64,000 nt of DNA. Source: Nitrospinota bacterium. Lineage in GTDB: Bacteria > JADFOP01. Location of the stretch: assembly GCA_022562795.1 (NCBI GenBank), contig JADFOP010000002.1, forward strand, positions 1 to 64,000, given 5' to 3'. Shown here piece after piece: positions 6,908 through 26,894 of this stretch. Each line of letters begins with the position of its first letter. Position 1 is the stretch's first letter. The notes below the pieces were generated by a model that worked only from the letters and a program-made list of their open reading frames with translations, did no database searches and was not told where the DNA came from. Made by a program: the position numbers and the translations under genes.

Positions 6908-8845
6908 GTGGAACGAATGGAAAAGCTACTCGGCCCTGGGGGATGGCTCGCCTCAGCCCTGCCAGGCTACGAGTGGCGGCCCGGACAGTTGGAGATGGCC
7001 CGGTCGGTGTATCGTGTCCTCATGGAGCGGGGCTGCCTCCTTGTGGAGGCGGGCACGGGGATTGGCAAAACACTGGCCTACCTGGTACCCATTGTGCTCA
7101 GCGCTCAAAGGGTCATTGTCTCGACCGGCACCAAGGCCCTCCAGGAACAGTTGGTCTTTAAAGACCTCCCCCTCCTCGGCCCCCTGCTGCCTGATAACTA
7201 CCGGGCCGAGCTCGTCAAGGGTCGCCAGAATTACTTGTGCCCGAAGAGGCTCAAGGCGCTCCGCCAGCATCCGCTCCCAGGCCTCGAGCGGGAGACCGCC
7301 ACCCTAGAGCGCATCGAGGAGTGGGCCCAGGTCACGACGACGGGCGACCGGGCCGAGCTGGCCGATTTGCCTGACGACTCGCCCCTCTGGCAGGCTGTCT
7401 GCTCCACGCAAGAGCACTGCGCGGGGGTGGCGTGCGGTGAGCGCGGCTCCTGCTTCATTGCCAGGCTCAAGCAACGGGCGGCAGCGGCGGACCTCTTGGT
7501 GGTAAATCATCACCTCTTCTTCGCCGACATGGCTGTCAAGGAGCGGGGCTTCGGCGAGGTCCTGCCACCCTCGCGGGCGGTGGTCTTCGACGAGGCGCAT
7601 CTTGTGGAAGATGTGGCCACCCAGTATTTCGGCTGTCAGGTCAGCACGTTTCGACTTAGCGAGCTGGTCCGCGACGGCCTACGGCTCTGCGAGCGGGCGG
7701 GCGACGGCCCCCTGGCGCTCGATGGCGCCTTCGTCCGGCTGGGAGAGGCCGTCAGGGTCTTCTTTGAAGCCTTGGGGGCCAGCCCGGAGCGTAAACGGCT
7801 CCGTCCCTCCAACTTGGACGGAGAGGCTTGGGAGGCCTACGGGGGCCTGGAGGGGGCGCTGGAGCACCTCGCAAGCGGGTGCGACGAGGCGTCACGGCTC
7901 GATGAGGATTTCTCGGCTTTGGCGAACCGGGCCAGGGAAATCCGACACGATCTTGCCGATATTCTCTCCGACGAGGGGAAGACCGTCTCATGGATTGAGG
8001 AGCGAGGCGGAGGGAGCTTTCTACAGGCGGCCCCCATCGAGGTCGGCCCCCTCCTAGAGGAGCGGCTTTTCGGGGCGGTGCGCTCAGCCGTACTCACCTC
8101 TGCGACCCTGACCGCCGCCGGAAGCTTCGAATACGTGGCTGAACGGCTCGGCTGCCAGGGGGCCGAGGAGCTGGTCGTGGAATCTCCCTTTGATTATCAG
8201 CGCCAAGCGCTCTTATATGTTCCGCCCCCACCCATGCCCCTGCCCACTGAGGAGGGGTTCATCGCGGCAATGACCGAGCAGCTCCGCTCCCTGCTTCACT
8301 GCACGAAGGGCCGGGCGCTATGCCTCTTTACCAGTGTCCGGCACATGCGCTCGGCGTACGACGCCCTTGCCGGCGAGCTCCCCTATCCATGTCTCGTCCA
8401 GGGCGAGAGGCCCAAGCATGTGCTCCTGGCAGAGTTCCGAGAGGCTGTCGCAAGCGTCCTATTCGCCACGACAAGCTTCTGGCAGGGCATAGATTTGGTG
8501 GGAGAGACCTTAAGCTGCGTGGTCGTGGACCGCCTTCCCTTCGCTGTGCCGACCGAGCCCCTGGTTGAGGCCCGCTGCGAGGCGATCGAGGCTGCAGGCG
8601 GCAACCCTTTCCTCGACTACCAGGTGCCGGAGGCCATAATCCTCCTGAAGCAGGGTCTCGGACGACTCATCCGCTCGACCACAGAGAGAGGGGTTCTGGC
8701 CGTCCTCGACCGCCGCCTCTTGACTCGTCCCTATGGGCGCTCGTTCCTGACAAGCCTCCCTCCCTGTCGGCTGACGAGCCACCTGGGGGCCCTTTCGACC
8801 TTTCTGGAGCATGGAAGAGTGCCGGAGGCCGTGAGAGTAGAATGA
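6908..8845 (+). CDS. DinG/XPD-family ATP-dependent DNA helicase
   Basis: A 645-residue superfamily 2 helicase of the iron-sulphur XPD/DinG group, which unwinds DNA 5' to 3' and is linked to repair of R-loops and stalled forks. Walker A is [10 protein letters not shown] (about 53-62) and the DEAH box is [11 protein letters not shown]. Between them four cysteines (CPKRLK, then the cluster [18 protein letters not shown]) fit the 4Fe-4S ligand set. Motif VI is [13 protein letters not shown]. There is no N-terminal exonuclease domain, unlike Bacillus DinG. Translation starts at GTG 6908 or ATG 6917, four codons apart. Its last codons overlap the next gene (ATGA), so the two are coupled. YoaA and DinG cannot be told apart here. 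Confidence 0.9.
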
Positions 8846-10518
8846 TTGCTAATCGCCTGGAGAGCAAAATATTCTGGTTGGTCATAATCCCGCTCATTCT
8901 GTGCTTTACGGCCCTGCTGATTGTGGGCATCGATAAAGAGACCCGCGAGCTCTTCAAGCAGGAGAGGCGGAAGCTCGGCATTTTGAGTCGTGTTATGAGC
9001 CAAGGCATCACAAATTCTCTCCGCCAGGAGGGCCCGCATCGCCTCCGGGGCCTCGTAAAGGATTTCCGGCACCTCGGTGAGGTCAAAACGCTGGCAATTC
9101 TCACCCCGGAGGGGCGCTACGGGCTGGTTGAAGAGCTTGGTCCCGTGCGGAAGCCCTCTCCCGAAAGCAAGGGGCGCATTGCGCAGGAGAGCGGCTCTAC
9201 CCCTCGAGCCCCTATCGCCCAGCACCCCGCCTTCCAAGCGGTGGTGGCCTCCAAGGCGCCCAGGAATTTTCAGCAACTCGTCGATGGTCAGCCCCGCTAC
9301 ACCGCATTGATGCCCCTACTCAATGAGAGCCGCTGCCAAGAATGCCACACTGATGGCAAGGCCGTGGTTGGGGTCCTCCAGGTCTCCACCTCCTTGGAGG
9401 AAACCATCGCGGAGATTCATAAGATCAAGTTCCGCCTCATTCTCTCCAGCGTCCTGTCCGTATTCATCATCGGAGTGATCTTGCGCTGGCTGCTCAAGGT
9501 CTTCATTCTACGCCCGATAAAAGAGGTGGCCGATACAATCCGCCAGGTGGCCGCCGGTGACCTCACACGTCAGGTGCGGGTGGATAGCAAGGACGAACTG
9601 GGAGAGCTCGCGACCGATTTTAACCGCATGGCGGCGAGCCTCAGGCGCTCTCAGGAGGAGCTTCGTGAGTGGAATATCCGCCTCGACCAAGAGGTCAAGC
9701 ATCAGACGGCGGACCTGAAGGCGGCCAACCTCAAGCTCGAGACCCAGCAGGAGAGGATTCGGCGCGACCTGAAGCTGGCCGAGAAGGTGCAGACGAACCT
9801 AATTCCCCATCCCCTGGTGCTGGACGGCCTGGAGGTTGGCGTTACCTACATTCCCCACTTGGAAATCGGGGGTGATGCCGCCGAGATTCTAGCCTTGGAC
9901 GACCATAGAGCTTTCGTGGCGTGCTTCGACGTGACGGGCCACGGCATCGCCGCCGCCTTGGTCTCTAACAGTATTCAGGGTGAAGTTCGCCGCCTCATGC
10001 GCGACGGGGCCTCCCCGGGTGAGATTTTAGTCCGGCTCAACCGGTTTATTACCCGAGGGTTTCTCGGAACGGGCATGTTTGCCACCTTCGTGTGCGGTTG
10101 TTTCGATCTCGAAGCGGGAACCCTCACTTACGCCGGGGGCGCCCATCCGGCCCTGCTCCACTGGCGGGCGGCTGAGGAGAGGGTCGTGCCCCTCCTCTCA
10201 TCGGGGCGTCTGCTAGGGGTCTTCGAGGAGATGGACGAGCCGGCGGCTCTGGAGGCCACCGTGCCCCTGGGGCCAGGCGATAGGGTCGTCTTTTACACCG
10301 ACGGGGTGGTGGAGGTGGCTGACGATGCCCGCAACATGCTCGGCGAGGAGGGCCTGGAGGCCATAGTGGCCCAACACGGGGCGAAGGCGCCAGAAGACCT
10401 CATGGCTGTCATCCTAAAGAGCATTGCAGACTACAACGCCTCCGATTCCTTCCGGGACGATGTCCTCCTGATGGTGGCCGGCGTCCGTAACGATGCGTCC
10501 TTTGTTACCAGCTCGTAG
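8842..10518 (+). CDS. Membrane sensor PP2C/SpoIIE phosphatase with haem-binding motif
   Basis: A 558-residue transmembrane regulator. Membrane helices at about 12-30 and 198-219 bracket a periplasmic domain holding CQECH (Cys165, Cys168, His169), a covalent c-haem motif as seen in Tll0287-like sensors. A HAMP domain (about 222-275), a coiled coil (to 315) and a C-terminal SpoIIE-type phosphatase (about 320-550) follow. Metal ligands are retained: GGD (343-345), FDVTGHG (Asp363), TDGVVE and FRDD. The usual Tyr/Phe after GGD is replaced by Ala-Ala-Glu. Such proteins dephosphorylate STAS antagonists in partner switching. The ATG overlaps the helicase stop. A redox- or ligand-gated phosphatase is likely; the target could be the STAS protein at 23030, which is inference. 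Confidence 0.85.
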
Positions 10519-10583: not shown

Positions 10584-10655
10584 ATGGAGTTCGTCCCAAG
10601 AATGACGCTCGCCGACGCCAAGATTATCCTTGAGGCCGTCGAGGGAGGACGGTGA
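10584..10655 (+). CDS. Possible 23-codon mini-ORF before the KaiC-like gene
   Basis: A short frame with a very good ribosome site (AGAAGGAGG, ATG at 10584) ends in TGA one base before the GTG of the ATPase gene. The peptide begins MEFVPRMTLADAKIILEAVE. The MTLADAK part resembles the first helix of GlcG/HbpS-type proteins but stops after that helix. It may be a remnant of such a gene, or a leader whose translation feeds ribosomes to the ATPase start. Confidence 0.4.
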   Translation: MEFVPRMTLADAKIILEAVEGGR

Positions 10656-10656
10656 C

Positions 10657-11349
10657 GTGACCGACCTGCTTCCGACCGGCATTGCCGGGCTCGATGCCCT
10701 AATTGGCGGGTTGCCGGTCGGCTCGCGCACGGTGCTCCTCGGCCCGCCCGGGACAGGCAAGACGGTATTCGCCATGCAGTTTTGCTGGACGGGGCTTAGC
10801 ACGGGGGAGCGGGTGGCTTACGACGTATTCGACCGGCCGTGGCCGGCTCTAAAGCGCTACTTCGCCTCCTTCGGGTGGGACCTGGAACCCTACGAGGCCT
10901 CGGGCCAGTTTCTGCCCGTCCAGGCTTTTTCCCACTTCGAGCCCTACCCCCGCGACCCAAGGGTTCGCTACCTTGAAATTTCAGACCTCGATTCCGTTAA
11001 GGCCGTCGACCGGGACCTGAGCAGAGCTGGGGTCCGTAGGTTCGTCTCGGGAGACTTGAGCAGCGCCCTTTTTGGCCGAATCTCGCGCGAAATCCTTCAA
11101 CCCCTAGAGGAGTGGACGGCCGCCTGGACCTTCTACGACGGCATTGCAGGCATCGATATCTTCACCGACGCCCCCCTTGATCGAGCCGCCGAGACCCATC
11201 TTGCCGAGCACCTGGTGGGGGTCCAGGCCATCCTGCGGTTTAGGCTCGAAGGAGAGCAGCGGGCCTTGAAGATTGAAAAACTCGAAGGCTGCGAGCACCC
11301 CCTGTCGTGGATTCCCCTGACCATCACTCCGAAAGGCATAGAGATATAG
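10657..11349 (+). CDS. KaiC/RadA-like P-loop ATPase
   Basis: A 230-residue single-domain RecA-fold ATPase of the KaiC/RAD55 type. The opening LPTGIAGLDALIGGLPVGS is the classic KaiC entry, followed by Walker A LLGPPGTGKT. The Walker B strand is atypical (RRFVSGDLSS, with one Asp). Only one ATPase domain is present and there are no KaiC-type phosphorylation sites, so a clock role is not implied; related proteins act in signalling. GTG at 10657 is chosen because GGAGG lies about eight bases upstream and the conserved domain begins there. It follows the sensor phosphatase and the mini-ORF and may be co-transcribed with them. Its role is unknown. Confidence 0.7.
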   Translation: MTDLLPTGIAGLDALIGGLPVGSRTVLLGPPGTGKTVFAMQFCWTGLSTGERVAYDVFDRPWPALKRYFASFGWDLEPYEASGQFLPVQAFSHFEPYPRDPRVRYLEISDLDSVKAVDRDLSRAGVRRFVSGDLSSALFGRISREILQPLEEWTAAWTFYDGIAGIDIFTDAPLDRAAETHLAEHLVGVQAILRFRLEGEQRALKIEKLEGCEHPLSWIPLTITPKGIEI

Positions 11350-21951: not shown

Positions 21952-22028
21952 TGGCGCGCCCGGGAGGACTCGAACCTCCGACCTTCGGATTCGAAGTCCG
22001 ACGCTCTATCCAACTGAGCTACGGGCGC
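21952..22028 (-). tRNA. tRNA-Arg(TCG)
   Basis: Cloverleaf with acceptor GCGCCCG/CGGGCGC, D-arm AGCTCAGTTGGATAGAGC, the anticodon stem-loop GGACTTCGAATCC with anticodon TCG, a T-arm containing GGTTCGAGTCC, and an encoded CCA. It reads CGA codons, and CGG by wobble. It is the last of three co-oriented tRNA genes. Confidence 0.95.
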
Positions 22029-22100
22029 GACTATCGTTGAGCCAAAGGGTTCCTTAATTACCCCGGGAGGCCCTTAGGAGGCCCCCCGGGTGAAGTTTAA

Positions 22101-22176
22101 TGGGGTGAGCGATGGGATTCGAACCCACAGCCCCCAGGACCACAACCTGGTGCTCTACCCTTGAGCTACGCTCACC
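22101..22176 (-). tRNA. tRNA-His(GTG)
   Basis: Acceptor GTGAGCG/CGCTCAC with the histidine-specific extra G at -1 (position 22176) opposite discriminator C. The anticodon loop is TTGTGGT with anticodon GTG. CCA is encoded. It is the middle gene of the cluster. Confidence 0.95.
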
Positions 22177-22222
22177 ACAACATGGGGGGATGGTGAGGCG
22201 GCACCCTCGCCGCATAAATGCC

Positions 22223-22299
<77 letters not shown>

Positions 22300-22543: not shown

Positions 22544-23020
22544 ATGGCGGTCATAGGGATATGTGAGGGCTCTTCGGCTGTGAGTTCCATTGCACCGTCC
22601 GATACGGTTTCCCTGACGATACCCAGCCATTCGAAGTACCTGGGGTTGGTCCGTAAGGTAATCCAGCAGGTCTCCCAGGAGGGGGGGTTTAGCGAGGATG
22701 AGGGCCGAAAGCTCACTTTAGCGGTGGATGAGGCCTGTAGCAACGTCATCAAGTACAGTTACGAGCATGACCCGACCAAGACCATCGTCCTCACCTTGGC
22801 CAACAGCGACGAGAAGCTGGAGATACGGATTCAGGATTTCGGAAAATGCCCTGACCTGGAGGCCATCAAGCCCAGAGACCTCGATGAGGTGAAGCCCGGA
22901 GGATTGGGGACCCACTTTATCCAATCCATCATGGACGAGGTGACCTACGATACGTCGCCTGGTGTCGGGTGTATCTTGCACTTGGTCAAATATAAGTCAC
23001 CTCGAATGCAGGAGCGATAG
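22544..23020 (+). CDS. RsbW-like anti-sigma/STAS serine kinase
   Basis: A 158-residue GHKL-fold ATPase of the RsbW/SpoIIAB group. The N box is AVDEACSNVIKYSYEH, the G1 box IQDFGKCPD and the G2 box GGLGTHFI, all in order. Family members phosphorylate a serine on a STAS protein and often bind a sigma factor. No sigma-factor gene is near. The partner is very likely the STAS protein encoded nine bases downstream, and the operon continues into the Mla lipid transporter. The ATG at 22544 follows GGGGAG; the TTG at 22520 gives a longer but poorly supported N-terminus. Control of lipid transport instead of transcription is inferred from context. Confidence 0.85.
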   Translation: MAVIGICEGSSAVSSIAPSDTVSLTIPSHSKYLGLVRKVIQQVSQEGGFSEDEGRKLTLAVDEACSNVIKYSYEHDPTKTIVLTLANSDEKLEIRIQDFGKCPDLEAIKPRDLDEVKPGGLGTHFIQSIMDEVTYDTSPGVGCILHLVKYKSPRMQER

Positions 23021-23029
23021 GAGCCTCCC

Positions 23030-23368
23030 GTGGAGCTCAGTGTCGAGCGGACAGACAGCGGCATCGTGACCCTAGCCGTCTCGGGCGAGGTTGACATGAA
23101 CACCTCGCTCGAGGTCCGAAACACCCTCACTCCTCTCTTCTCCGAGGAGCCGAGGGCCCTGATGGTCGACCTCTCGGGGGTCGGGTACATGGATTCCTCC
23201 GGGGTCGCTACCCTTGTGGAAGGGTTGCAGTGGTCGCACCGCAGCCAGATTCCCTTCCGGCTGTACGGGATGGCCCCAGCGGTCAAAAGCGTCTTCAGGA
23301 TGGCCAGGCTGGAAAGCCTGTTTGAGATTTTTGATACCCGGGAGGCGGCCTTAGAGGACTTAGTCTAA
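23030..23368 (+). CDS. STAS-domain protein (anti-sigma antagonist / MlaB-like)
   Basis: A 112-residue single STAS domain. The motif VDLSGVGYMDSSGVATL carries the serine phosphorylated in SpoIIAA and RsbV (here Ser57, second of the SS pair). In E. coli the STAS protein MlaB binds MlaF and has Thr at this site. The gene lies between the RsbW-like kinase (nine bases upstream) and mlaE (nine bases downstream), so it may serve both as kinase substrate and as the MlaB subunit. It starts at GTG 23030. MlaB identity is supported by position, and the phospho-switch by the motif and the kinase neighbour. Confidence 0.88.
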   Translation: MELSVERTDSGIVTLAVSGEVDMNTSLEVRNTLTPLFSEEPRALMVDLSGVGYMDSSGVATLVEGLQWSHRSQIPFRLYGMAPAVKSVFRMARLESLFEIFDTREAALEDLV

Positions 23369-23377
23369 GGAGTAGCC

Positions 23378-24172
23378 ATGGGTTTGGCCCAAAAAACTGT
23401 TGGCCAATCGGTCATTCGGTTTCTTCAGCATCTCTCCTCCATCTACTATCTCTTCGTGGATACCCTCAAGTGGTTGATTGTGGCTCCCTTGAAAGGCCAG
23501 CGGCCGCGCGTTCGGGCCATAATCGACCAGATGGTGGAAGTGGGCGTACAGAGCGTGTTTATCGTCATGCTCATCACATTCTCCCTCGGTGTCATCCTCG
23601 CAATGCAGACCGCCTACCAGATGCAGCGGTTCGGGGCGACCCAGTACGTGGGCAGCCTGGTGAGTGTCGCCTTCGTTCGGGAGCTCGGGCCCCTGATGAC
23701 GGCTCTCGTAATCACGGGCCGAGTGGGGGCGGCCTTCACCGCTGAGTTGGGCACCATGAAGGTCTCTGAGGAAATTCTCGCCCTCGAGACCATGGCTTTA
23801 AACCCAGTGAATTTCCTGATTGTCCCTCGCTTTTTGGCCATCTTAATTATGCTTCCCATGCTCACCATCGTAGCCGACGTAACCGGCATGTTCGGGGGCT
23901 ACCTCATCGGGGTCGGTAGCCTCAACATTCCAAGCAACCTATATCTCCAACGGACCTTCGACGCATTGGTCCTCAAGGACCTCTTCTCTGGGTTGTTCAA
24001 AAGCGTCGTCTTCGCCGTGATCATTGTAATGATCGCTTGTTACCGGGCCTTCATCGTCGAGGGGGGCGCGGCGGGGGTGGGCCGCTCGACCATGATCAGC
24101 GTCGTCCACTCCATGGTCACCATCATATTCGCCGACCTCGTCTTAACAGCCTTTTTCTACTTTGTCTTCTGA
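23378..24172 (+). CDS. mlaE: MlaE-family phospholipid ABC transporter permease
   Basis: A 264-residue inner-membrane permease with about five hydrophobic helices after an amphipathic N-terminus. Family landmarks are MQTAYQMQRFGATQYVGSLV and ARELGPLMTALVITGRVG-like text (VRELGPLMTALVITGRVGAA, about residues 103-122). With MlaF and MlaD it moves phospholipid between the inner and outer membranes. The gene follows the STAS gene by nine bases and nearly touches mlaF. The length matches the family (about 260). No mlaC or mlaA gene follows in this operon. Confidence 0.93.
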   Translation: MGLAQKTVGQSVIRFLQHLSSIYYLFVDTLKWLIVAPLKGQRPRVRAIIDQMVEVGVQSVFIVMLITFSLGVILAMQTAYQMQRFGATQYVGSLVSVAFVRELGPLMTALVITGRVGAAFTAELGTMKVSEEILALETMALNPVNFLIVPRFLAILIMLPMLTIVADVTGMFGGYLIGVGSLNIPSNLYLQRTFDALVLKDLFSGLFKSVVFAVIIVMIACYRAFIVEGGAAGVGRSTMISVVHSMVTIIFADLVLTAFFYFVF

Positions 24173-24185
24173 GGATGCGTCCCCT

Positions 24186-24971
24186 ATGATCCGGGTGAGG
24201 AATCTTGTCAAAGGCTTCGACGGCACGAAGGTGCTGGACGGGCTGACCTTCACGGCCGAGAAAGGCAAAATCACCGTCATCATGGGCGGCAGCGGCGGAG
24301 GCAAATCCACCCTGCTTCGGTGTCTCATTGGAGCCTTGCGGGTCGACAGTGGCGAGATCTGGATAGGGGACAAAGAAATCACCCGGCTCAGGGAAGTGGA
24401 GATGAACGAGGTACGGAAACGCTTTGGGATGTGCTTCCAGAACGGGGCCCTGTTCAACTCAATGACGGTTGGCGAGAATGTGGCGCTCCCAATTCGGGAG
24501 CACACGAGGCTGGCCGAACACGTCATCAGCATCATGGTGAAGATGAAGCTCGAGCTCGTGGGGCTCAGGGACGCCGAGAACCTCATGCCGTCCCAAATCT
24601 CCGGCGGGATGGCCAAACGGGTGGCTGTGGCCCGGGCCTTGGCCCTCGACCCGGAGATAGTCTTCTACGACGAGCCCTCGGCGGGCTTAGACCCCATCGT
24701 CAGGGCTGTCATCGATGAGCTGATGATGGATCTCTCGAACAAGCTCGGAATAACCAGCGTGGTCATCACCCATGAGCTTGGCAGCGCCTTCAAGATTGCT
24801 GACCACATGGTCATGCTCTACAAAGGGCAGGTGGTGGCTGAAGGCACTCCCGAAGAAATTCAAAACTCTGATGACCCCGTCATCAATCAGTTCATCCATG
24901 GTAGCCCCGACGGGCCAGTCCCTCGGAGGCTTTCGAGCAAGGACTACGGTGAGGACCTCCTCTATACATGA
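24186..24971 (+). CDS. mlaF: MlaF-family ABC transporter ATPase
   Basis: A 261-residue ABC ATPase that powers the MlaE permease. It has Walker A MGGSGGGKSTLL (about residue 35-46), the signature ISGGMAKRVAVARAL and Walker B IVFYDEPSAGLDPI, followed by the switch histidine in VVITHELG. ISGGMAKR replaces the common LSGGQ, as is typical of MlaF. ATG 24186 is preferred; a TTG at 24162 would lie inside mlaE. The gene is 13 bases after the mlaE stop. The C-terminal tail is the usual site for MlaB contact in the E. coli complex; whether the local STAS protein binds it is inference. Confidence 0.93.
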   Translation: MIRVRNLVKGFDGTKVLDGLTFTAEKGKITVIMGGSGGGKSTLLRCLIGALRVDSGEIWIGDKEITRLREVEMNEVRKRFGMCFQNGALFNSMTVGENVALPIREHTRLAEHVISIMVKMKLELVGLRDAENLMPSQISGGMAKRVAVARALALDPEIVFYDEPSAGLDPIVRAVIDELMMDLSNKLGITSVVITHELGSAFKIADHMVMLYKGQVVAEGTPEEIQNSDDPVINQFIHGSPDGPVPRRLSSKDYGEDLLYT

Positions 24972-24990
24972 GGATGGGGGCGAGAACTCA

Positions 24991-26004
24991 ATGGCCGAGT
25001 ACTTTCGGAAAACGACGAAGGCGGGGGTGCTGATCCTGCTGGCCTTGCTGTTGATGGGCGGCATGATTTTCATCGTTGGCGACTTCGCAAATCTCTTCGG
25101 CAAGAAGAACCAGATTAAGGTGCTTTTCGCCTCCGCCCAGGGCATCGAGGTCAACGCCCCGGTCGCCTACGCCGGGGTGACTGTAGGTCGAGTGGCGGAT
25201 ATCCGTATCTTGAGCGGTCAGGAGCATGCCGATGCTCCCAAAAAGCAGATTGAGCTTCTGCTGGAGGTCGATGATCGGGTTGACCTATCCACCATCCAAC
25301 AGATTTCCATCCGCCAGAAAGGGTTCCTTGGCGATATGTACGTGGACATCACGCCAGGCCGCGGTAAGCCCAAGAGCCTGACGGAGAGGACGGTCTATTT
25401 GGGCAAGGAGGCCAGGAGCCTCGAAGAAGTTATGGAAACGATGGATTCGATCGGGAAAGAGTTCCGTTTGACCTTAAGCAGCATCAACGATGTAGTCGCT
25501 TCCGAGGAGTTCAAGGTCTCGCTCAAAGCTCTAATAACTAAGGGAGAGCGGGCCATGGACGGGGCGGCCAAGGTATTTGCGGACAACAGCGAGGACCTGC
25601 GGACGACCATACGGGACATAAAACACGCCAGCGCCGACCTCAAGGAGCTACTCGCCGCCAGCCGCGGTCCGGCGATCGAAACGGTCGCCAATCTTAGGGA
25701 TGCCTCCAGCCAGATGCGCACGCAGCTCGATTCCTTGGCGGAGGGGTTCAACCGCGTGGCGTCGAAGGCAGAATTCGTCGTTGATGACAACAGCGCCAAC
25801 CTCTACGCCGTGACCCTCAATCTAAGGGCCATTTCCGAAAACCTTAAAGCCATGAGCGCCGACATCAAAGAGCACCCCTGGAAGCTCGTCAATTTATTCG
25901 GCAAAAAAGAGGGCTCGTCGTCTTCCTCGAAGGAGAAGGCTGTGCCCCGTGCCGAGCAGGAGCTTCGACGGGACGGGGGTCTGGGCCGGCCGGCAGCCCG
26001 GTAG
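24991..26004 (+). CDS. mlaD: MlaD-family MCE-domain protein
   Basis: A 337-residue membrane-anchored substrate-binding protein. One transmembrane helix (about 11-31) leads into the MCE domain (about 38-120; VLFASAQGIEVNAPVAYAGV and GFLGDMYVDITPG). A long helical region follows to the C-terminus, which ends in a Lys/Ser-rich, low-complexity tail. MCE proteins form a hexameric ring that guides lipid between MlaE and its periplasmic partner. It is longer than E. coli MlaD (about 180), like the longer MCE proteins of other phyla whose helices may extend a periplasmic tunnel. ATG 24991 lies 20 bases after mlaF. Confidence 0.9.
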   Translation: MAEYFRKTTKAGVLILLALLLMGGMIFIVGDFANLFGKKNQIKVLFASAQGIEVNAPVAYAGVTVGRVADIRILSGQEHADAPKKQIELLLEVDDRVDLSTIQQISIRQKGFLGDMYVDITPGRGKPKSLTERTVYLGKEARSLEEVMETMDSIGKEFRLTLSSINDVVASEEFKVSLKALITKGERAMDGAAKVFADNSEDLRTTIRDIKHASADLKELLAASRGPAIETVANLRDASSQMRTQLDSLAEGFNRVASKAEFVVDDNSANLYAVTLNLRAISENLKAMSADIKEHPWKLVNLFGKKEGSSSSSKEKAVPRAEQELRRDGGLGRPAAR

Positions 26005-26009
26005 GAGCC

Positions 26010-26894
26010 ATGACGCGACGGCCTCCATTTCTGCTTCCCCTCCTTCTCGCCGGAATGGTGTTGGCTGTGGGCTGTAGTCGTCCTCATGCCACGATGCGCC
26101 CCCTGCAGACGGGCCTTAGAGCGTATGAGCGCGGCCACTACGAAGAGGCCCTGGCCGCCTTCCGCAAGGCGGTGGCCGAAGAGCCCAAGAACCTCGTTGC
26201 AAAGACCAACCTGGCCCTAACTCTTCAGGACCTAGCACGCTATGAGGAAGCCCTCTCTCTGTACGAGGAGCTGACCATCCGCCAGCCAGACGCTCCCTTG
26301 CCGTGGATTAACAAGGCCGTCTGCCTGCGTGAGCTCGGCCGGCTCGAGGAGGCCTTCGCCACATTGAACGTCGTCGAGACCCGGTGGCCGGCTAGCCCGT
26401 ACCCGACATTCAATCGCGCTCTAATCTACGAGGAGGAGGGCAAGTGGGCCGAAGCCTTAGAGGCTCACCGTGAAGCCTTGAAGATCGCTCCTCACGAGGC
26501 GGCTATCCACTACCGCCTCGGGCTAATTTTTGAGCGCCTCCACGAGCTTGACAATGCGGTCAAGGCCTATTCAAAGGCGCTCCTTCTGAAGCCCACCGAC
26601 CCGGTGGCCCGCCTGAAGCTGGGCGAGCTCTTCGCCTCCCGGGGCCAATACAGCCGGGCAATCCGGGAGTACTCGAAGCTGACGGTCCTTGCCCCCGGCG
26701 CATCCAACCTCTATCACCGCCTAGCCGGTCTATATCGAAGGCAGCACCGTCTAGAGAAGGCGCTCGAGATGCTTCAGCGGGCCCTGGAGCTTCGGCCCGC
26801 CGACGCCCAACTCCAACAGGAGCTCCAGGAGGTGCTTCAAGACCTGGTGGACCCCAGCCGCCGCGTGTTGGGGGAAGACCCCCCAGCAGGATGA
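26010..26894 (+). CDS. TPR-repeat outer-membrane or periplasmic lipoprotein
   Basis: A 294-residue protein with a lipoprotein signal (VLAVGC, lipid-bearing Cys near 22) and six or more tetratricopeptide repeats spanning about 30-275 (e.g. GHYEEALAAFRKAVAEEPKN). Asp is absent at +2, so sorting to the outer membrane is expected under the E. coli rule. It starts six bases after mlaD and is probably part of the same transcript, which raises the possibility that it scaffolds the periplasmic side of the Mla system. That role is inference; TPR lipoproteins serve many complexes. Confidence 0.8.
   Translation: MTRRPPFLLPLLLAGMVLAVGCSRPHATMRPLQTGLRAYERGHYEEALAAFRKAVAEEPKNLVAKTNLALTLQDLARYEEALSLYEELTIRQPDAPLPWINKAVCLRELGRLEEAFATLNVVETRWPASPYPTFNRALIYEEEGKWAEALEAHREALKIAPHEAAIHYRLGLIFERLHELDNAVKAYSKALLLKPTDPVARLKLGELFASRGQYSRAIREYSKLTVLAPGASNLYHRLAGLYRRQHRLEKALEMLQRALELRPADAQLQQELQEVLQDLVDPSRRVLGEDPPAG

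Follow-up and report, generated by a model that had tools for sequence, protein, structure and literature searches.

What are a partner-switching kinase and a STAS protein doing at the head of a lipid-transport operon? The question is raised by a Nitrospinota genome (GenBank assembly GCA_022562795.1), in the first 64,000 nucleotides of contig JADFOP010000002.1, the stretch that we analyzed and call the window. Five intact open reading frames follow one another there on the forward strand, separated by 9, 9, 13, and 19 bases as originally predicted: an RsbW/SpoIIAB-like GHKL serine kinase of the HATPase_c_2 type (22544-23020, 158 amino acids), a SpoIIAA/RsbV-type STAS protein (23030-23368, 112 amino acids), an MlaE-family permease (23378-24172, 264 amino acids), an MlaF-family ATP-binding cassette (ABC) ATPase (24186-24971, 261 amino acids), and an MlaD-family MCE protein (24991-26004, 337 amino acids). 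We consider it quite probable that the kinase, together with a PP2C phosphatase, sets the phosphorylation of the STAS protein, which in turn sets the binding or activity of MlaF.

The MlaE, MlaF, and MlaD core sits in a single operon, with all three domain matches over their cut-offs (PF02405, 1.1e-76; PF00005, 2e-30; PF02470, 2.9e-15). MlaE also passes TIGR00056 (247.1 bits, cut-off 212.2), and the best NCBIfam match of the ATPase is MlaF NF008809, at 266 bits below the equivalog cut-off of 441. The 2.15-Mb assembly is 97% complete, and its closest relative with a name is Nitrospinae bacterium AH_259_B05_G02_I21. Neither MlaC nor MlaA has a match in it, which makes the transporter an MCE system of the MlaEFD type rather than the full Mla pathway. 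The same genome carries a second mlaE gene, in an mlaE-mlaF-mlaD set on contig 39 that has no STAS gene, no kinase, and no MlaF C-terminal extension, and so offers a within-genome contrast.

If the pairing of kinase and transporter were a local accident, it should be rare among relatives. In four of 40 other genomes, the kinase search arrived directly at the order kinase-STAS-mlaE-mlaF-mlaD, with kinase identities from 81% down to 36%. A kinase-only query was then run against 85,462 species, and the neighbors of the 80 nearest kinases were scored with home-made profile hidden Markov models within about 6 kb. Far from being poorly conserved, the linkage to mla genes recurs at 76 of these 80 loci, compared with a chance expectation, roughly estimated from about two mlaE genes per 3 Mb, of under 1% for finding mlaE that close to a given kinase. 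It takes three arrangements (65 colinear, 8 divergent and mostly from Desulfobacteraceae, and 3 with mla upstream, from Verrucomicrobia) and spans about twelve phyla, including Nitrospirota, Nitrospinota, KSB1, Calditrichota, Desulfobacterota, Verrucomicrobiota, Planctomycetota, Acidobacteriota, and Proteobacteria. Since the query alignment was made from mla-linked kinases, the linkage holds for this kinase subfamily and not for RsbW kinases generally. Approached from the transporter side, a family-diverse survey of 121 mlaE loci found an adjoining STAS gene by profile at seven, and all seven also had a kinase. The adjacency of kinase, STAS, and mla is no local accident.

These counts bear on a more conventional explanation of the locus, in which the kinase acts as a standard anti-sigma factor that holds a sigma factor whose gene lies elsewhere, the STAS protein antagonizes the kinase, and the mla genes are simply cotranscribed neighbors. 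Both in sequence and in fold, kinase and STAS are indeed akin to RsbW/SpoIIAB and RsbV/SpoIIAA, and sigma-70 region 2 has ten matches in the genome, including a FliA/WhiG-like one. None of the ten lies on the 95-kb contig of the cluster, which bears out the earlier statement that no sigma-factor gene is nearby. Such an absence is weak evidence, however, because only one of 22 kinase loci not linked to mla had a sigma gene in the short flank. Linkage to mla at 76 of 80 loci, in three arrangements, stands against a single sigma gene among the same 80. Furthermore, four of the genome's sigma factors scanned against NCBIfam, three RpoD/RpoS-like and the one FliA/WhiG-like, all fell under the SigB, SigF, and SigG cut-offs.

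The four loci without mla genes were inspected individually. Two (L064 and L097) lie on contigs that stop shortly past the STAS gene. At a third, L051, a PP2C-kinase-STAS set occurs without mla, and an unlinked mlaE-mlaF-mlaD set elsewhere in the genome has no STAS gene alongside; the MlaF of that set nonetheless bears the STAS-holding extension described below (...SREEYERSLLGN). The fourth, L084 in genome G393, keeps kinase and STAS in a draft assembly in which no MlaE was found and the PP2C gene is fragmented. This locus is possibly a regulator decaying after the loss of its transporter target, and a broken PP2C in a genome without detectable MlaE again speaks against a sigma factor as the target.

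A physical tie between STAS and transporter is suggested by the C-terminus of MlaF. In Escherichia coli, a C-terminal extension of MlaF (Tyr261, Leu265, Leu266) helps to hold the STAS subunit MlaB (PMC7367683). The MlaF in the window ends in SSKDYGEDLLYT and has a comparable extension, GPVPRRLSSKDYGEDLLYT, encoded at 24912-24968, where the E. coli MlaB-holding handshake reads PAGDYHADLLPGS; the second, STAS-less MlaF of the genome ends in GSSVGPITSV. Across the full set of operons, 68 of 69 MlaFs encoded alongside a STAS gene carry the extension, compared with 3 of 101 encoded without one, a comparison in which the motif was defined after the tails had been inspected, two contig-truncated loci were excluded, and any p-value is inflated by shared ancestry. 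Even so, the difference is almost complete, and the family-diverse survey alone gives 6 of 7 against 3 of 101. The earlier worry that the STAS surface might be unable to meet MlaF thus has an indirect answer only. It is likely, judging from these tails, that the STAS protein binds MlaF in the manner of MlaB. That the STAS-holding extension tracks the STAS gene speaks against the anti-sigma explanation, which, taken with the linkage counts, we hold to be very unlikely.

We then asked which residue of the STAS protein could carry the switch. The protein (PF01740, 8.8e-18) scores 71.4 bits against TIGR00377, the general anti-anti-sigma superfamily (cut-off 53.45), and 25.1 bits against MlaB NF033618, which is below the 90 required. 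Its best match in the PDB is TM1442 (7.3e-23), followed by SpoIIAA (1.6e-14) and, much more weakly, MlaB (7.8e-5). Ser57 had been named as the phosphorylation site. We place the predicted acceptor one residue earlier, at Ser56 (codon 23195-23197, in the sequence MD-S56-S57-G), because Ser58 of SpoIIAA aligns with the first serine of DSSG: it belongs to D57-S58-S59-G60 in 1th8_B, and 1tid_B has DASG there. Ser56 in turn aligns with Thr52 of E. coli MlaB. The same PDB alignment rules out the view, which follows from taking Ser57 as the acceptor, that E. coli MlaB lacks an acceptor residue.

The acceptor position is serine in 79 of 79 kinase-linked STAS proteins, and among 31 Mla STAS proteins classed as kinase-less (those whose short inspected flank holds no kinase) it is serine in 18 and threonine in 8. 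The residue at position 57 is serine in 76 of 79 kinase-linked proteins compared with 4 of 31 kinase-less ones; it is a kinase-correlated position only. Position 61 is threonine or serine in 78 of 79 kinase-linked proteins and leucine in 25 of 31 kinase-less ones. Because NF033618 retrieved few true MlaB proteins in the phylum to which G309 belongs, this comparison also draws on mlaE loci from the class that includes Methylohalomonas lacus. M. lacus has both STAS types, kinase-linked (L310) and kinase-less (L307), in a single genome. Three kinase-linked STAS proteins (L112, L116, and L119) have SSAG for DSSG, retaining the acceptor serine and replacing Asp55 with serine. In the M. lacus class we also encountered permeases in which STAS and MlaE are fused (L316, L317, L322, L323, L325, L330, L331, and L338); these have no adjoining kinase and mostly have alanine after the acceptor position.

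The kinase that would act on this serine has intact motifs. It matches PF13581 (1.4e-25), has RsbW (6m36, 8.9e-24) and SpoIIAB as its best PDB relatives, and contains the N-box (E63..N67), G1 (D98xG100), and G2 (GGLG, 119-122) motifs. E63 and N67 are present in 81 of 81 homologues and GGLG in 80 of 81. At 79.3 of 145 bits for RsbW and 51.9 of 135 for SpoIIAB, it remains under both NCBIfam equivalog cut-offs. In a tree built from 133 columns, in which many forks are not settled, mla-linked kinases group separately from RsbW and SpoIIAB, with 6 label changes compared with 25 after shuffling. The pairing with mla has apparently arisen more than once: in G276 (L168), a kinase from a different RsbW lineage adjoins STAS-mlaE-mlaF-mlaD, suggesting an independent recruitment. 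The true start of the kinase in the window may be a GTG near 22580, since the homologue from the same genus starts with a GTG roughly 12 codons further in (VSSNAP...).

A partner switch also needs an enzyme to reset it. The original prediction rightly paired kinase and STAS as a two-part regulator and overlooked a third part, a GAF-PP2C phosphatase resembling RsbU, which lies within the cluster at 58 of the 80 loci. In most relatives it is the first gene of the cluster, and at five loci it forms a single polypeptide with the kinase; PP2C-kinase fusions also occur in G031 (GAF, SpoIIE, and HATPase_c_2 domains) and at L181. In the Nitrospinota genome, which has two SpoIIE-type PP2C phosphatases, the ortholog is on contig 8, carries GAF and SpoIIE domains, and is 47% identical over its full length to the cluster PP2Cs of Nitrospirota, compared with 33% to PP2Cs of loci not linked to mla. 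Finding a PP2C elsewhere tells little for most of the 19 genomes whose cluster has none, since these hold many PP2Cs. We also considered a HAMP-PP2C within the window (8842-10518), 12 kb from the cluster, as the missing phosphatase and rejected it because it is no nearer to the cluster PP2Cs than to others. This HAMP-SpoIIE protein has an Mcp40H-20-type sensor, and its gene is followed by one for a KaiC-like ATPase (10630-11349). The genomic evidence gives good support to a single functional unit made up of the kinase, the PP2C, the STAS protein, and the MlaEFD transporter.

How might such a unit work? We propose a partner-switching module whose output would be, in place of a sigma factor, a lipid ABC transporter. 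The STAS protein would take the place of MlaB and bind MlaF, aided by the MlaF extension, and the transporter would need it to assemble or to hydrolyze ATP. The RsbW-like kinase would bind the STAS protein and phosphorylate Ser56, on what would be the MlaF-facing surface, whereupon the phosphorylated STAS would release MlaF or stop activating it. Once its GAF domain senses a signal, the PP2C would strip the phosphate and transport would resume. A kinase-STAS switch on lipid transport is what had been suggested before, and the genomic comparisons support it: what we observe is the linkage of the genes, their intact motifs, and the joint occurrence of phosphatase, kinase, STAS acceptor serine, and MlaF extension. 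What we infer is the control mechanism, which includes the phosphorylation itself, its direction (phosphorylated meaning off), the GAF signal, the lipid, and the direction of transport.

That phosphorylation switches transport off is plausible by analogy with E. coli mutants. There, MlaB is required for MlaF association, and the phosphomimetic T52E weakens MlaF binding in a pull-down (PMC7367683). SpoIIAA, RsbR, and RsbS likewise lose their binding partners upon phosphorylation (PMC7367683). A variant that overlaps with our proposal reverses the sign or shifts the step: either the STAS protein is active when phosphorylated, or the phosphate adjusts ATP hydrolysis while the STAS protein stays bound. 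The T52A mutant lends it some weight: this MlaB stays bound and yet ATPase activity is abolished (PMC5016091). The site may thus serve catalysis rather than binding, perhaps through a requirement for a hydroxyl or phosphate. Given T52E and the behavior of SpoIIAA, RsbR, and RsbS, we hold this variant to be rather unlikely.

The flow of information could also run the other way. STAS could be a constitutive MlaF subunit that the kinase uses as a sensor, with the engaged transporter freeing STAS or kinase to report lipid flux to another target. Gene linkage and motifs leave the direction of information unfixed, and a GAF-bearing PP2C could integrate a second signal. We find this flux report improbable: we see no second target linked to the module, a stand-alone kinase-STAS pair of this type occurs only once in the genome, and the E. 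coli T52 mutants alter the activity of the transporter itself. The inventory behind this statement comprises one stand-alone kinase of this type and three STAS matches, namely the cluster STAS, a chemotaxis-like STAS, and a STAS-ATPase on one polypeptide.

Several observations weigh against the proposed off-switch. The T52A phenotype is one of them. The STAS protein is nearer to SpoIIAA than to MlaB, common descent confounds the motif correlations, and in this genome the phosphatase gene lies outside the operon. Phosphorylation of any Mla STAS protein was not reported in the literature we found. Finally, an AlphaFold chain consisting of the kinase-STAS read-through, with glycine substituted for the one TAG that separates them, reached a predicted local distance difference test score (pLDDT) of 90 and a predicted template modeling score (pTM) of 0.63; the folds are confident, and the relative arrangement and interface are not. 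The best Foldseek matches of the model are RsbW/RsbV and SpoIIAB/SpoIIAA. Its STAS domain has a last strand and helix, without which E. coli MlaB reportedly stops early (PMC7367683).

The operon extends beyond mlaD into a gene for a TPR-repeat lipoprotein (26010-26894, forward strand; matches to TPR families), the final conserved gene of the cluster, which also lies 3' of mlaD in two relatives (G001 and G007). From its five predicted transmembrane helices, the C-terminus of MlaE should lie outside the cytoplasm; we therefore rejected a STAS-MlaE-MlaF read-through chain as a model, because MlaF joined by a short linker would not reproduce the native complex. Immediately upstream of the cluster are three tRNA genes on the minus strand (Arg-tcg, His-gtg, and Arg-tct; 21952-22299).

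Taken together, we think it reasonably likely that these loci represent a widespread, undescribed class of partner switching across about twelve phyla, in which a GAF-PP2C and an RsbW-like kinase would directly gate an MCE-type lipid ABC transporter through phosphorylation of an MlaB-like STAS protein, giving post-translational on/off control of intermembrane lipid transport. If so, partner switching, mainly known from transcription, directly controls membrane transport as well. Phosphorylation of MlaB at Thr52 has been proposed without naming a kinase (Thong et al. 2016, PMC5016091; Kolich et al. 2020, PMC7367683), and how active MlaB is regulated was left as an open question (Kolich et al. 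2020). Candidate enzymes for phosphorylating the STAS subunit of the transporter are now on offer, and the question of Thr52 regulation becomes testable with a named kinase, phosphatase, and acceptor serine whose genes are linked to those of the transporter across many phyla. A cultured carrier is available in M. lacus HMT 1 (L113/L310), whose kinase-less classical mla set (L307) provides an internal control.

Related systems share parts of this design. Our searches of open-licence papers turned up no account of MlaE linked with SpoIIE, partner switching, PP2C, or RsbW. Partner switching with a non-sigma output is familiar from SypE-SypA of Vibrio fischeri, which regulates biofilm formation and involves no ABC transporter. 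SypE-SypA likewise combines a serine kinase with a STAS protein (PMC10120452). Casali and Riley (PMC1810536) described STAS genes and STAS-DUF140 fusions in Gram-negative mce clusters and did not mention a partner kinase. The STAS-MlaE fusion permeases and kinase-less MlaB proteins of Proteobacteria resemble our system in tying STAS to MlaE/MlaF, but have no adjoining kinase and mostly read D-[ST]-A-G-x-x-L where the kinase-linked proteins have DSSGxAT. E. coli MlaFEDB shares the MlaE/MlaF/MlaD core, an MlaF extension whose Y261 and L265 match the Y...L found here, and Thr52 of MlaB at the acceptor position; it differs in having no known kinase or phosphatase partner, and in the MlaC and MlaA that the Nitrospinota genome lacks. 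The closest parallels in components are RsbU-RsbW-RsbV and SpoIIE-SpoIIAB-SpoIIAA, which also join a PP2C phosphatase, a GHKL kinase, and a STAS protein with an acceptor serine, and among which the best PDB matches fall. Unlike RsbW and SpoIIAB, the kinase described here scores below both equivalog cut-offs, kinases of its subfamily are at times fused to the phosphatase, and the module is linked to an ABC lipid transporter rather than to a sigma factor.

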